Below are positions 19,842 through 51,000 of a stretch of 64,000 bases of DNA, one piece after another. The notes under the pieces were generated by a model. That model saw only the letters and a list, made by a program, of their open reading frames with translations. It did no database searches and was not told the origin of the DNA. A program made the position numbers and the translations under genes. Within the stretch, counting starts at the first letter, position 1, and each line of letters begins with the position of its first letter. The stretch comes from Fragilariopsis cylindrus CCMP1102 (lineage: Eukaryota; Bacillariophyta; Bacillariophyceae; Bacillariales; Bacillariaceae), in contig FMBT01000137.1 in NCBI GenBank assembly GCA_900095095.1, positions 1-64,000 on the forward strand. Direction: 5' to 3'.

Positions 19842-21592
19842 ATGACAACCACCGATGGTTTCACCATCGATAACAATAGTAATGACGTCGTCATGATTTT
19901 CAAATCCTCTTTGGTACAATATGTAGCTTCACCACAAGTTCGATTACCTTCTAATTTTGTTGGTGTACGATGTGTACGACGTGAACGTGAGTGTAATAGT
20001 AGTAGTAAAAACACAAATACACAATCAACCTCCGATGATCTACTCCCGTCAGCGAAAGATAATAAGAACGATGATGATGATGATGATAATGTCGACGGCG
20101 GCGGCGACGACGAAAATGTTGCTCGTAATAACAAATATGTCAAATTCGTTGTTGTAGATGAAAATGGTAATGAACGACGTATGACAAAAGCCGAAAAGAA
20201 GAAAAAGAAAAGACAACTAGCAAAAGAAAACAAAGAACAAGCCCAACAAAATACAGCAAAAAAACAAAAACTTGAAGAAGGGATTAGTAGTACGATACCA
20301 TCATCCACGGCAACGGCAATGGCAACAGAGGGACAAGAAGGAAAATCGTCGTTGTCATCGTCGTCGTCTTATCATCAATTACCAATCAATCCAACCACTA
20401 TGGATCAGGAACTTGCTGACTTTCAAGGCGAACGAGCTGGTTTGCCAACCGTTTTATTATCACCACCAATGGCATTACAATTTTTCTCAAAAAATCTACA
20501 CGCACTGCCAGAAATAATACCATTAGTTGTTGGTAAAGAAGAAGAACTACTAAACGACGACGAGGAGATTGTCGAAGACGCACACAACAACAACAAAAAC
20601 AACAACAATTATTATGATACTAATGGCGATGGTGCTGTATTGATACATTCACAGTCAATGGCGGAAGATTGGTCGAATCGGTTGAAAGAAAAATGTATCC
20701 TACCCGCTGAATCTGTTCGACAAAAAGAAGATTTAAGACCGCTAGCTTATAGATTACATCCGGAACCATGGCAACGGATGCGACCAACTCCTATCAAGGA
20801 GCAGCCTATGTTAACTACTTCACGTAGTCGTAATCGAAATGATAATCCCGAAAAAGAAGACAAGAAGAAGTCGTTAGTAGCAAAAACATCAGGAGATCAA
20901 ATGATAGTCAATCCGAATCCACGCGATTGGATCACATTAACGTGTCGACCTCGTCTTACATCATCATCATCATCATCATCATCATCGATTCTTCAACATG
21001 ATGATATTCTATCAATTGTATTTGAATACATACACCGAGAAACTCCATTTTATCTATCCTGTGGAGCCAAATTTGGTTCGGACTACCTTATTTATGACGG
21101 TCCGCGCGAGTCTAGACATGCTTTTGCTGGATTACGTGTTCTTTCTCGATTTACAAATTCGATGACATCATCATCATCATCATCATCATCACTATTACCA
21201 ACAACAGATAGGATCGAAACGCATCATCACCACCATCCCCATCATCGGAACTTCAGCTACCACTTCCAACAGCATTTTCTCTTACAAGTTTTGTACGATG
21301 TTTGAATACAGCAGGTAAACTTGCGCTGTTGGCAACAGTAGAAGAAGTTCAAGTAGTAGTTCCGGATAATAATGAAGAACAACAAGAAGGTAGTAATGGG
21401 GAAAATGATATTGATCAGAATGATACAATAACACGCAAAATCAACAACAATAACATCACAACACATTATCGAGTTGCATTCGTTGATGTTGCTCTAGAAA
21501 AAGTTTTAGATGTTCACAAACGAAAGAAAGGATCATCAAAAAAGAAATTACAGAAACGAAGGGATGTTACACAAAACCTCGCAAAGAAATAA
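19842..21592 (+). CDS. tRNA-splicing endonuclease subunit Sen34-like
   Basis: Catalytic-type subunit of the tRNA intron endonuclease. ATG at 19842. N-terminal part is long and low complexity (D, S, N, K runs). A Sen34-like stretch AGLPTVLLSPPMALQFF is near 20440. The endonuclease fold follows: FYLSCGAKFGSDYLIYDG (21050, catalytic Tyr in the final YDG), RHAFAGLRVL (21115, His) and LNTAGKLALLATVEE (21302, Lys). The three members of the Tyr-His-Lys triad are therefore present. The frame slips once in a CAT-rich microsatellite near 21230, between the His and the Lys, joining the 19842 frame to the one that ends at 21592. The C-terminus after the catalytic Lys is longer and more basic than in yeast or human Sen34. 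About 580 residues against the usual ~300. Confidence 0.78.
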
Positions 21593-21963
21593 ATGTAATG
21601 GAAGAGGAGATCATGTTTACTTGTCCCACAAGATGAATGCACAAGCTAGAGTATAGATTAAAATAGACATACTGCCACTTTAAAAACAATATATGTCTTA
21701 ACTTATGATTTATCGGTGATAATGACTGTTTTACGTAGCAAATCTGCATGCTTCTCGAACATAAATATCAAACAACTAAATCCATTGAGGTGCTTCATTT
21801 GAATTACCATGGTATTTTCGTCGTTGTCATTCTCTATGCACACACACGTTTCTTGCTTGTGATGATGAAATCAGCACTACCTGACCGAACCGAAATGTTC
21901 GGAATTATATAAAATTCCGCGTGTAAAATCCGTCCCTAATCGAGAGGGAAAATGTTTACACGC
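21593..21963. other. Convergent intergenic region with stacked hairpins
   Basis: 3' ends of Sen34 (+) and SelO (-) meet here. It carries three adjacent inverted repeats at 21885-21963 directly after the SelO stop. If SelO is a selenoprotein its SECIS element should lie within this interval or just beyond; I could not recognise a convincing core by eye. Confidence 0.5.
21885..21963. repeat. Three consecutive perfect inverted repeats
   Basis: Hairpin A 21885-21902 (CCGAAC, 6-nt loop, GTTCGG). Hairpin B 21900-21919 (CGGAATT, 6-nt loop, AATTCCG). Hairpin C 21919-21963 (GCGTGTAAA with TTTACACGC outside and TCCCT with AGGGA inside). Hairpin C abuts the TAA stop of SelO, so all three would form in its 3' UTR. 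Confidence 0.85.
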
Positions 21964-24417
21964 TTAACTGGATCAGCTCATGGAGGCAACTCCACCTTTC
22001 ACTAGCGAGCTTTCTGGTGCCCGACGGTAGTATAATTCTGTTTGTTGAGGAGTTCCTTCCTCGTATGGGTACTTCGTCAGATCAAACAACTCGTTTAGAG
22101 TGGTAAAATCATCATTGGCGGCCGCCGTGTAAGCCTCAACCAAAATCCATTCTCTAAGTACAAATTTGGGATTATTTGCCTTCATTTGCTCGTATACTTC
22201 CTTCGATGGACGTTTAGTTGCTTTAAGTGCATCTCTCCAACCCACGATCCATTCAATCAAGTCTCTGCGGTTACGTGCGGTTAATGGCTCATAAAATGGA
22301 CTTGTCTGCTACCTTCCTCTCCCTCGAGTTTCTCCATCATAGCTTCATAGTCTGACGAGTCTAAATCATCGATGTCTCTCATCACGTATGTCAATTGTCT
22401 CCAAAATAGAGTCCAATCAGCTCGACTGGTACTCAGCAAAGTCTGGAGACCTTCCACAACTCTACTCCAACATCCGCATCATCCGGCAGACCCAATTTCA
22501 AATTAAATACAGCCTCTGTCTTTTGGTTGAAAATAACTTGTGCTTTCGTCATGAATTCTCCTATTAATTTGGTGGAGATTAATTCTTCTGTACCTTCTTC
22601 GGGGTTTGCTGCTACCCGAGCTGCAGCAATGACAGGCACTACTGATTCGACTAAGACTTGATAATTTACAAATCCTGCTTGTGGCTGATTCAAAAATCCA
22701 AAATGCTGTCCAGAGCCAGTCCATTTGGCAAATAGGGGCGAAAATTCATCCATCCATCCAAAAGGTCCGTAATCCATAGTTTTACCGCCAACTAAACAAT
22801 TGTCGGCATTGAAATTACCCTGTGCGAAGCCAACACGTACCCATCCGTTAACCATATCACTGTAAATGACGAAGAGAAAAGGAAAAAGAACATCAATTTA
22901 GAAATGGACGTGAGTTATGATGTTCATCATTTTTGTGTATTAATTGCTTCATTTGTACCTAATATAAAATCTATCCCATCATCGATGCAAATGTTTACTT
23001 ACGCAAGGTTAATGGCTGCTAAATCCAGAAATTTTTCCGCAGCTTGCTCCAAGTTGTTGGACTCAATGTACGGGTCGTATGCTTCTGTTTTATATTCTCG
23101 CCTGCAGGCATGCCATATGAGTGCTTCTAATTCCTTCCAGGCTGCACGTACGTGTAAGTTTAAAAAGATTGAAAGAAACAAGCATTATAAGAAGATAGTG
23201 TAAAAGGGGAAGCACCGCGTAGTAACCAATGAAAATCACAGGTTGTATATATATATATGTATATATACTTTTAGAAGAAGAAAAAACTTACTGCGATCAG
23301 TTGTATCATATTTATATTTTGGATGCTGTTCCTGCTTCGCGATTACACGTTTGGCGAATAAATCAAGATGTCCAATTCTAATAAAGCTGGAAGCAACACG
23401 ACAGGTTATAGCGCATGGTTCGGTGATCATCATATTTGGATCCATTTTTTGAGTGGTTCGTAATTGTTGAATAATCTCACGACGTTTCTCTTCCGGATAT
23501 TGAGCCAAACGTAAATCATTCATCTCTGGTATCTTGAGCGATGCATCCTCTGAATACCATGGTCGATTCACTGTGTCGGTCTTCGATTGTACTAACGATA
23601 AAGCACGGGTGGTGGCGATTCCTAAATGATGCATGGCCTCGCTGGCCAAGAATTCACGAATACTGGATCGCAAAACGGCTCGTCCATCCGCACCTCGAGC
23701 AAATGGTGTCTTCCCTGCTCCCTTTAATTGTAACTCGTGGCCATTGAATTCCGCAATCGATATCGCTCGTCCATCACCATAACCGTTCCCGGTGCCGTAG
23801 GGGCAATTACTTGTATATCGTGATCCCATGATTGAGAGCGCGTACGGAGTCGCCCATGTTTCAGCCTTCCCATCGTTCAGTATTCGATTCCCTGACACAA
23901 ATTCTAAAAAGTCGTCCGACGCCACTTGTTCCGGAGTTAATTTCAACAAATTATAAGCAACATCATCCGAGACTAAGAGACGTTCTGGCTTGGATAAACC
24001 AGTAGGTTTGACAATAACGTAATGGCCATTAAATACTTGACGTTTCGAACGATTGTCGTTGTCGGTCGACAAGCCTTCCAGTCTGTGAGATTTTTGGAGA
24101 TTTTCGGGTGTTTCAGGTGACAACTCGCGTGGCCAAGAGTTATCGAGCGTTATGGAGGAAAGAGATCCATTAGTTGTGGAAGCTGCGGCTTTGGTAGACA
24201 TTTTTCTGCTGCTGCTGCTGCTGCTGCTGCTGGAGTTCCAAGAAAATGCGTTTGCTGTCGTCGGTGGATTATTAGTATTGTATGTAATGGAAGTGGCAGA
24301 AGAAAAGAAGATACAATAAAACGCAGATGTTCCTTTTGCAATAGAAGATTGAAATCGCATTTTACTCTTCGTCGAATGCAATAATGATGTTGTTGCTAGA
24401 GAAACAATCTTTCCCAT
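21964..24417 (-). CDS. selO: SelO protein adenylyltransferase, probable C-terminal selenoprotein
   Basis: Pseudokinase-fold AMPylase of mitochondria (UPF0061). ATG at 24417, then a Ser-rich probable targeting region. Family blocks: [66 protein letters not shown] (23770-23590), [19 protein letters not shown] (23420), and in exon 3 [20 protein letters not shown] and GWMDEF (22820-22740), with the catalytic Asn and Asp. Introns 23142-23291 and 22860-23002 splice in phase. Frame slips occur at a G run near 22450 and near 22310. The last codons read GGVASMS-TGA-TCC-AGT-TAA: the TGA at 21973-21975 sits exactly where SelO orthologues such as the human protein have selenocysteine (U-S-S-stop). I therefore extend the CDS to the TAA at 21964-21966. 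Confidence 0.88.
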
Positions 24418-48000: not shown

Positions 48001-51000
48001 CATGCATGACATCTATGCCAGCCGTCACTTCTGAATAGTGCTTAAGTATTGATGGCGGGACTCCTAGTACGTAGTCTTCTCTGGGCATATTGTTAGTACG
48101 CTGTACAGTTTTTCCTTGTACTGAATGCTTGTTGGGCCCGAAAATAGCCTTAGCTATATTTATGTTTCTCCGACTTACGCCACACTCCTTAATCGCACCT
48201 GTTTCTAATCCATGTGCAAAGTCCTCATCAGAGGGGAGGCATAAGCAATCTTGAATGTAGCGGGCCATCGTAGCCCTCTTGACGTCTAAAGCTGAAAACA
48301 GTTTCTTCTCTTCTTCAACTGTAGTTAGGAGTGTGGCTGGGGACGATCCGTCGTCCACATGTAAACAGTATAGCCCATTCGGTTCTACTCCGAATCTGAC
48401 ATACTCACCATTGTCTTTGTAGACATAGAAGGCATTATCAACACTAGTGTCAAGGGTGATACGATGGAGCTTAGAAAGCGCGGCGAGCGAGATCAAATTT
48501 GCTACTCCATCTTTATGTAGGTGTAAATCAGCTTGGGGTAGTGGAAGTGTTTTTAGATCATCACAGAGTTCACCGACTTGATTATTAGACCATGATTTAC
48601 CCCCGCAGTGGATGGTTGTTGGACTTGAGCTTGCTGTTACATTTTGAAGCATGTCCGCGTTTGCAAACAGGTGTAGAGATGCTCCACTGTCCAGAACCAA
48701 AGCATTCAGTGAGATATTCCCACGGGAAAGTTTGTTGTACCCACTCCTTACTTCTTTAGATCTCATTGTTGGAAACAATTGGGGATTGGGAAGTACTTTA
48801 ACACTCTCTTCTGCAGACTTGACTGTCGTGAATGCATAGGATGGATTCGGTGTTGCATCGGGGATGTCAAGGATCGATGACTGTTGATCCTCCCCCACGT
48901 TGATTACCATTTTGGGCTGTAGACGCTTGGTAGTATTTAGCGTCCGCCCCTGCAAAAATCCTGATCCTGATAATCAGGGTCAGTCGGATCGAAGTACATA
49001 TACGCATTATCCAAATGAATGACATCTTTTAATGTATCAAACTGATCTGGAAAGATACTTGTTGGTCGTCCTGACCTGTAGAGATATGGCAGCATCTTGT
49101 AGAGCGTGAATTGGGTAGTTGATCGTCCAAGATACTTTGATTCTTTACGATATATTTGAATATTACCACCAAATCTTTGTCTTACATCAACCATATTAGC
49201 AATATTACTGGTCTTTTTGCCATTGATTGCCGCCAGTTTTGGTGGGTCTAACACCGTGGTAACTAGGTACTGCGAACGGATTGCTCCATTCTAATTGGCA
49301 CATTCAGACTGGTGATGTTCATGGACGCACAAGGGTCCAACAAAACATTTAAGTCACCGATATTGGTGATGACACTGTCGTCATGAGAAGTGAATGTTGC
49401 AGCACTGCTGTCTTCATCTGTATCACATACGTATGATGCTTCACATATAACTGTTTGGAAATCCTTATCACCAACCGTGGTACTTGCACTAGATTCGGAT
49501 GATGTCGTTGAAGCGCCATACGTCCTAGGCTGTAGGCCTGGCATTTCACCATCACTGATTGAGTCATCATAAGAGAAATCGTCAGTATCAAAATCCATTG
49601 AGTCATTGGTCATATAAGTTGAATCATCTTGACCGTCGATGTGGACGATATTGAATGGATCATTCGAATCAACGCTTGAACCATCACTTGAACTATCGTC
49701 GGCAGCTCTGTCATGTAGGGACGGCATTCGTTCATCATCATCATCACTGGGGTAATAATGGTCACCAATGATAATACAAGCCACTTCACCAAGATCTTCA
49801 TCATTGAATTCTGCTTCAGTTGTGATTGGTTCGAAGCATTTTGATGAATGATACCATTATCACTCACCGCAGCTAGGACTACTGCTTTGGTGTCGTGTTG
49901 TCAACGACGTGTGCACCAGCCACATTGCCATCATCTTGTTGCTCTCCTGCTGCTTTACGTGCAGCTGCAGCTGCTTTCTTTTGTTTAGCAGTTCGGGGAT
50001 TTTGATCATTAGAGGTTGATGGTCCATCATCTTCGTACTTGTCGATGAGCTCGTAAGCTTTTGATGCTGTTACCGGGTAACAGTCTGCATTCCCCGTAAG
50101 GAATTGGTTCTTGAGGTTAGTCTTGAGGTTCTTGCTCTTGCAGCCTTCAATCATTAGGATTCCTACTATCAAATCATTGACTTTCTTGTCATACACCTTC
50201 TTATCGGATGCGACCATGCCCAAGTACGAGACCAGTGTTTCACCAGCATCAGCTAGGAAGGGCTCGTATAGCTTTGTTCCAAAGACGAAGTCGCCCCTGC
50301 CCTGCAAGCATTGTTAACATACACTGATAGGTGTCTTTTGTACTGCGCCGTGTCGACTGCAGCGGATGCATTCTTGGGCTTCTGCATATAGGTAATGGAC
50401 TTACGAATATGTCTAAGCCTAGCCAATGGTTCCCATGTTGATGTCTCGTTGGTTGAGCATGTTTCTAGGAGAAGCTCGATTAGCTGTACAGGGCATTGGG
50501 ATGCCACTACTGTGGCATACCTTCCGTCGTGCTGTAAATCATCCCAAGCGATTTGTTCGAATTGTCCTTTTAATGCAAGGAAGATGTGGATTGCATTCTT
50601 TTCATATTCAATGAAGTCCTTCAATGTGTGATTGTAGCGTGCCTTCCACATGTCATACGCAATCTTGTACTGTTCTGCGCCAGTTGCGCTGTAGGTGAAT
50701 ACGTTCGCTGTGATAGTACCGTAACTTGATTGTGATGGTGGTGCGCCAACAAAGTCCGCTTCATCAAACCTGTTTAATTCTGTAATTGATTCAGCCCATT
50801 TGCCATATCCTTTTGAGCCACAGTAGGTGACTAATGCGTCGGTTAGATCGACGATCTGTGTGGACTGGTTTGGTCCTACTGTAACTACCTTTTCATACAA
50901 GGCAGTATCACTTCCAGCTAATCCTTTAAACTGGTTTCTTTTTGGCGCGTTACTGTTGTTGTTGTTACGATTTCGGTTACCTTGATAACCCGTTCTACCT

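Follow-up and report, generated by a model that had tools for sequence, protein, structure and literature searches.

A terminal UGA codon in a diatom SelO gene and its probable reading as selenocysteine

In the SelO gene carried by the stretch of diatom DNA analysed here (the window, 64,000 nucleotides in all), an in-frame UGA stands three codons before the stop codon, and the question raised by this locus is whether that UGA ends the protein or is read as selenocysteine (Sec). The codon itself is plain: minus-strand positions 21981–21964 read ATG AGC TGA TCC AGT TAA in the frame of SelO, with the UGA at 21973–21975 and the UAA stop codon at 21964–21966, in agreement with an earlier note on this DNA, which had given the last codons as M-S-U-S-S-stop. 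Judged from the sequence, this UGA is very probably a Sec codon, specifying the third residue from the end. We put at about 93% the probability that the gene is a SelO gene whose UGA is read as Sec by the cell's machinery, under the direction of a SECIS element in the 3′ untranslated region (UTR). Ordinary gene prediction would drop the last three residues of this SelO, Sec included.

The SelO gene and its C-terminus

By its likeness to known members of the family, the minus-strand gene would encode the diatom's SelO, a kinase-fold protein of an adenylyltransferase family; protein AMPylation is given as the activity of SelO enzymes in passages of one study (PMC12409994). Two of its three pieces exceed the curated cut-off of the Pfam SelO family (PF02696; 22.8 bits), namely the open piece of exon 1 used in the search (23338–24417, 112.4 bits), beyond which the exon can be followed as far as its GTAAGT donor, near 23290, and exon 3 (22439–22855, with a start at about 22859; 59.5 bits). 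The latter encodes the kinase-like core with its GNFNADNC and DYGPFG motifs and is 36–44% identical to bacterial SelO. Between them lies exon 2 (23003–23141), which follows an AG acceptor, ends at a GTAAGT donor and joins in frame; two introns, both with GTAAGT donors, were thus read from the sequence. The C-terminal piece (21967–22308), which ends MSUSS, scores 19.2 bits against Pfam SelO, below the cut-off, and was placed by structure matches and by alignment with bacterial proteins. With the TGA read as U it counts 114 residues, and in comparisons with solved SelO/YdiU chains its best match has an E-value of 2e-4; three distinct solved sequences were matched, over residues 14–84 only, the tail lying outside the match.

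The tail itself was compared with bacterial relatives. A search of genome contigs with the exon 3 piece retrieved four of them among 35 pattern matches, and the C-terminal piece aligns end to end with all four SelO C-termini, the U standing opposite a Cys in every case. In two relatives, a Sulfurimonas metagenome-assembled genome (MAG) and Alteromonas sediminis, the protein ends SCSS-stop (diatom GGVASMSUSS versus bacterial AGISHISCSS and GGISHYSCSS), and in the other two, both Wenzhouxiangella MAGs, it ends FCGT. Bacterial SelO/YdiU (solved chains PDB 6k20, 6iii, 9jym and 6eac) belongs to the same Pfam family and differs in having Cys where the diatom would have Sec. The comparison of C-termini that the earlier note proposed thereby places the UGA at a conserved Cys/Sec position, with the Ser-Ser-stop shared by half of the relatives.

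Could the UGA nevertheless be a true stop, and the Ser-Ser-stop beyond it a product of chance? UGA is a standard stop codon, and the Rfam SECIS model finds nothing at this locus. However, as the earlier note had anticipated, such a tail is rare by chance: only 6 of the 2604 TGA trinucleotides of the window (both strands, that of SelO counted in) are followed by Ser-Ser-stop. Moreover, relatives carry Cys at the very same place, followed by Ser-Ser-stop in two of four, and the genome encodes a Sec machinery, so that termination at this UGA has next to no probability.

A further alternative is that the gene is a decaying pseudogene, its single-base shifts being real and its UGA tail a relic. Indeed, the window copy offers no single open frame reaching the tail, and the core can be joined to the C-terminal piece only across two shifts of a single base, one close to 22455 and the other close to 22308. 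The region is covered a second time by nearly the same DNA on another contig (C439, the window's contig being C213). There the frame is restored after 22455, but a TAG is present at that place; the shift near 22308 is common to both copies, and an intact open frame exists in neither contig. Against decay, the two contigs show no substitution over the 3.2-kb SelO region and three gaps of one base each, which fall at 22882, 22455 and 21897 of the window. Over 39,570 aligned columns, counted in alignments of 1500 or more, there are 77 gap openings, 49 of which span a single base, for 90 substitutions, and since gap openings rival substitutions, errors of the consensus are suggested. The similarity to bacterial SelO proteins also extends through the last residue. 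The sequence comparison thus indicates that the frame shifts are probably consensus or assembly errors, and a decaying pseudogene is improbable. More generally, there are many small gaps between C213 and C439, and reading frames in this assembly need care.

In E. coli SelO, the activation loop probably provides a Cys with which the one at the C-terminus pairs. The diatom protein has no Cys at the position of the Cys in the 6iii chain; the Cys of its NADNC motif is common to the two bacteria ending SCSS and is missing in the two ending FCGT. From this pattern in the sequences, the NADNC Cys may be the residue with which the terminal Sec forms a redox pair.

In human SELENOO, Sec is the third residue from the end. 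Passages of two studies place it near the C-terminus (PMC3628699, PMC12409994), and the diatom and human proteins, likened here by these descriptions, would share a C-terminal Sec. Among diatoms, the SelO of Thalassiosira and that of Phaeodactylum were listed in 2012 by Dudkiewicz et al. among likely misannotated Sec cases, and diatom SelO was assigned to a branch usually ending Uxx (PMC3281104). As far as described there, these proteins have, like the present one, a UGA at the Uxx-stop position and show no difference in kind; SECIS elements and UGA-adjacent hairpins of diatoms do not figure in that description. Sec-containing diatom SelO is thus already published, and the present finding is ordinary in kind. 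An earlier report had a partial T. pseudonana SelO that was without the Sec region, as given in an excerpt (PMC2375036), and a survey of algal selenoproteomes counts SELENOO among the algal families, with 20–44 selenoprotein genes in diatoms in the portion concerned (PMC7539508).

Sec machinery and other selenoprotein genes

The earlier note had suggested that genes for the Sec machinery be sought, and four of its components, tRNA-Sec, SepSecS, SelD (on two contigs) and domain III of eEFSec, are found in the genome. The active-site residue of SelD was not found in the SelD locus. For tRNA-Sec, 13 of 15 matches lie above the Rfam cut-off, distributed as three each on contigs C69, C547, C56 and C138 and one on C678. 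ARAGORN, to which four of the eight tRNA loci were submitted, called 11 tRNA-Sec genes, every one with the anticodon TCA. A comparison of C69 with C547 over 3.1 kb gave 99.97% identity, so the true number of genes must be lower than 13; the 12 copies extracted (of the 13) represent six distinct sequences, with the D-arm region in two versions. These genes (loci L001–L008) stand in tandem clusters, and some of the contigs are duplicates. Such multiplicity is reminiscent of the diatom Fragilariopsis cylindrus, for which Santesmasses et al. give eleven non-identical tRNA-Sec predictions (PMC5330540).

Other selenoprotein genes accompany this machinery. A TGA lies inside five of nine GPx matches (two of the five on duplicate contigs), and GPx17 is an additional UGA-containing GPx, with the TGA at an exon end. 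One of three SelT matches contains CVSU, and a UGA-containing TrxR ends GGCUG-stop. A search for Sep15/SelM returned two matches, both below the cut-off and neither with a TGA. The thioredoxin-family search gave 75 matches, with a TGA inside in five rows; inspection of these covered one gene, present on two contigs (L058 and L059), which was left uncounted, its TGA falling outside any CxxU motif. A scan of the collected loci for extra Sec sites, judged by eye, found nothing convincing besides the GPx genes, the scan demanding 35 open codons on either side and being therefore blind to terminal sites of the SelO type. That the genome belongs to a diatom is indicated by its 27 silicon transporter matches.

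Under the proposed mechanism, this machinery would decode the third-last codon of SelO as Sec, guided by a SECIS element of the 3′ UTR with a core starting about 145 nt downstream.

The SECIS-like element

A candidate for this element was obtained at 21759–21839 (minus strand) by a folding scan combined with a rule derived from the genome itself. In the predicted structure, helix I is formed by GCATAGA and TTTATGT, the 5′ core ATGA occupies 21830–21827 and the 3′ core TGA 21770–21768. A first, stricter scanner, which required an unpaired AA or CC, gave no SECIS candidate for the SelO region, and this requirement was dropped in the later folding scan. That scan covered the 3′ regions of seven selenoprotein genes, namely SelO, SelT, TrxR and four GPx, and its top candidate in every one has the form AATGA[CT] ... 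[CT]GA around a long helix. The resulting rule holds for all seven regions versus 4 of 182 tiles of 700 nt in the window, including SelO's own tile (3 of the 181 others); it was drawn after viewing all seven elements, SelO's included, with limits set by the element of TrxR. When the SelO region was shuffled, 19 of 1000 sequences fitted the rule and none of 1000 attained the score of SelO.

The SelO candidate is less distinctive by other measures. On folding score alone it ranks below at least 15 of the 847 ATGA candidates of the window, and it comes third of 61 once the core letters are required. The 106-nt element gains only modestly in stability over its shuffles, 19 of 200 of which fold as stably (z −1.31). 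Of the seven candidate elements, the scan detected an unpaired AA near the tip in one, that of SelO being among the six without it. When six SECIS candidates were aligned with MAFFT, their cores did not line up. A possible second SECIS, at 49768 on the plus strand, was judged from its surroundings to be a chance occurrence.

The Rfam models were silent throughout. No SECIS family matched between 20500 and 22500 of the window, and SECIS_1 had no match in the whole genome, 133 of 1400 first-look candidates being scored. A scan at six loci with other selenoprotein genes found none either, and because the model also misses these six loci, its silence at SelO says little. It may be that the SECIS elements of this genome differ from the Rfam model. 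The search for a SECIS that the earlier note had called for thus had a divided outcome, with a SECIS-like element recovered by the genome's own rule and nothing by SECIS_1. On this moderate evidence, a SelO SECIS is likely, short of proof. Together with the Cys-aligned UGA, the Ser-Ser-stop of two of four relatives, the Sec machinery and the other selenoprotein genes, the SECIS-like element lends support to the Sec decoding that the earlier note had advanced.

Stem-loops beside UGA codons

A second predicted RNA structure, a strong stem-loop that is a possible Sec redefinition element, occupies 21918–21963 (minus strand). Its first nucleotide adjoins the stop codon, 9 nt beyond the UGA, and its minimum free energy was not equalled in either of two shuffle runs (z −4.0, 0 of 200; z −3.7, 0 of 300). 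Such a hairpin may tilt the UGA towards Sec insertion over termination, with lower odds than the decoding itself. TrxR (L025, reverse strand of contig C64), the other gene found here with a near-terminal Sec, has a stronger hairpin (z −6.2), equalled by 0 of 300 shuffles; its first pair lies at +5, and it overlaps the stop codon. In the first 50 nt beyond their stop codons, SelO and TrxR reach −19.0 and −22.4 kcal/mol, respectively; the lowest value among 53 mechanical ORF ends (frames of 220 codons or more, some of them not genuine gene ends) is −15.8. Of 1320 window positions, 3 are as stable over 50 nt as SelO and none as TrxR.

Three GPx genes (GPx14, GPx15 and GPx16, loci L014–L016) have a stem that begins 6–7 nt past the UGA, within the coding sequence. 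The z-scores are −2.4, −2.1 and −2.1, with 7, 11 and 12 of 300 shuffles as stable, and 13, 22 and 0 of 2000 synonymous recodings reach the stability of the respective genes. A UGA-adjacent hairpin was thus seen at five of the eight UGA sites examined, starting 4–7 nt past the UGA in TrxR and the three GPx; the number of independent cases is below five, given the close paralogy of GPx14 and GPx15. No such hairpin was found at SelT (z 0.1, 1866 of 2000 recodings as stable), at the spliced GPx17 or at GPx20 (z −0.4), the last analysed unspliced with its second exon not located. Across the three GPx paralogues, one of eight pairs shows a two-sided change that preserves the pairing (A-U to G-C), which is not significant alone (155 of 500 shuffles reach it).

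These structures recall signals described elsewhere. The element of SELENON lies 6 nt past its UGA, and Sec insertion is promoted by stem-loop 1 of SELENOS, which starts at a distance of 3 nt from the beginning of the 3′ UTR (both PMC3628699, PMC8704476); in another study, every eukaryotic SPS gene with a UGA is reported to carry a stem-loop at that codon (PMC4561486). As described there, the SELENOS stem-loop 1, at the start of the 3′ UTR, is much like the SelO and TrxR hairpins, and all three types stand at the Sec UGA or a few nucleotides 3′ of it, as here, in other genes, the present ones being predicted folds in a diatom. A limited literature search met no Sec redefinition elements of diatoms. 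By analogy of anatomy, the hairpins possibly belong with such elements. It can be proposed, tentatively and at somewhat less than even odds, that diatoms widely use UGA-adjacent stem-loops as second recoding signals beside SECIS, setting Sec efficiency; in SelO and TrxR, with Sec close to the C-terminus, the stem-loop would lie at the stop codon and where the 3′ UTR begins, and in GPx inside the coding sequence.

Alternatively, the SelO hairpin may have nothing to do with the UGA and be a 3′-end or termination structure between convergent genes, or chance, a reading whose probability comes close to one half. The hairpin and the SECIS-like element both lie in the 371-bp gap that separates the SelO stop from the stop of a convergent frame (21590–21592, plus strand), and the hairpin is palindromic, so either strand could form it. 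Its absence at SelT, GPx17 and GPx20 points the same way, as do several window-wide counts. Among 2603 TGA sites of the window, 18 equal the stability of the SelO site over the following 55 nt, and 2 that of TrxR; sliding windows around the genes, overlapping ones included, are as stable in 7 of 634 cases for SelO and 6 of 634 for TrxR. Over 45 nt the SelO site is unremarkable, with 608 of 2604 TGA sites as stable, because that length cuts its hairpin; the corresponding counts for the three GPx are 18, 37 and 2 of 2604. Against this reading stand the stronger hairpin of TrxR and the in-coding stems of three GPx, 6–7 nt past the UGA, which few or no synonymous recodings equal; moreover, none of the 53 mechanical ORF ends matches the stability found after the SelO stop. 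If the hairpins do act on the UGA, diatoms would have a two-signal recoding, by SECIS and UGA-proximal stem-loop, and the idea that stem-loops of this kind belong to the old parts of eukaryotic Sec decoding would become testable outside animals.

As to the gene on the other side of the gap, its 487-residue ORF has no match in Pfam, and at 19842–21592 (plus strand) it seems to pass from one frame into another, through either an intron or a shift of the frame.
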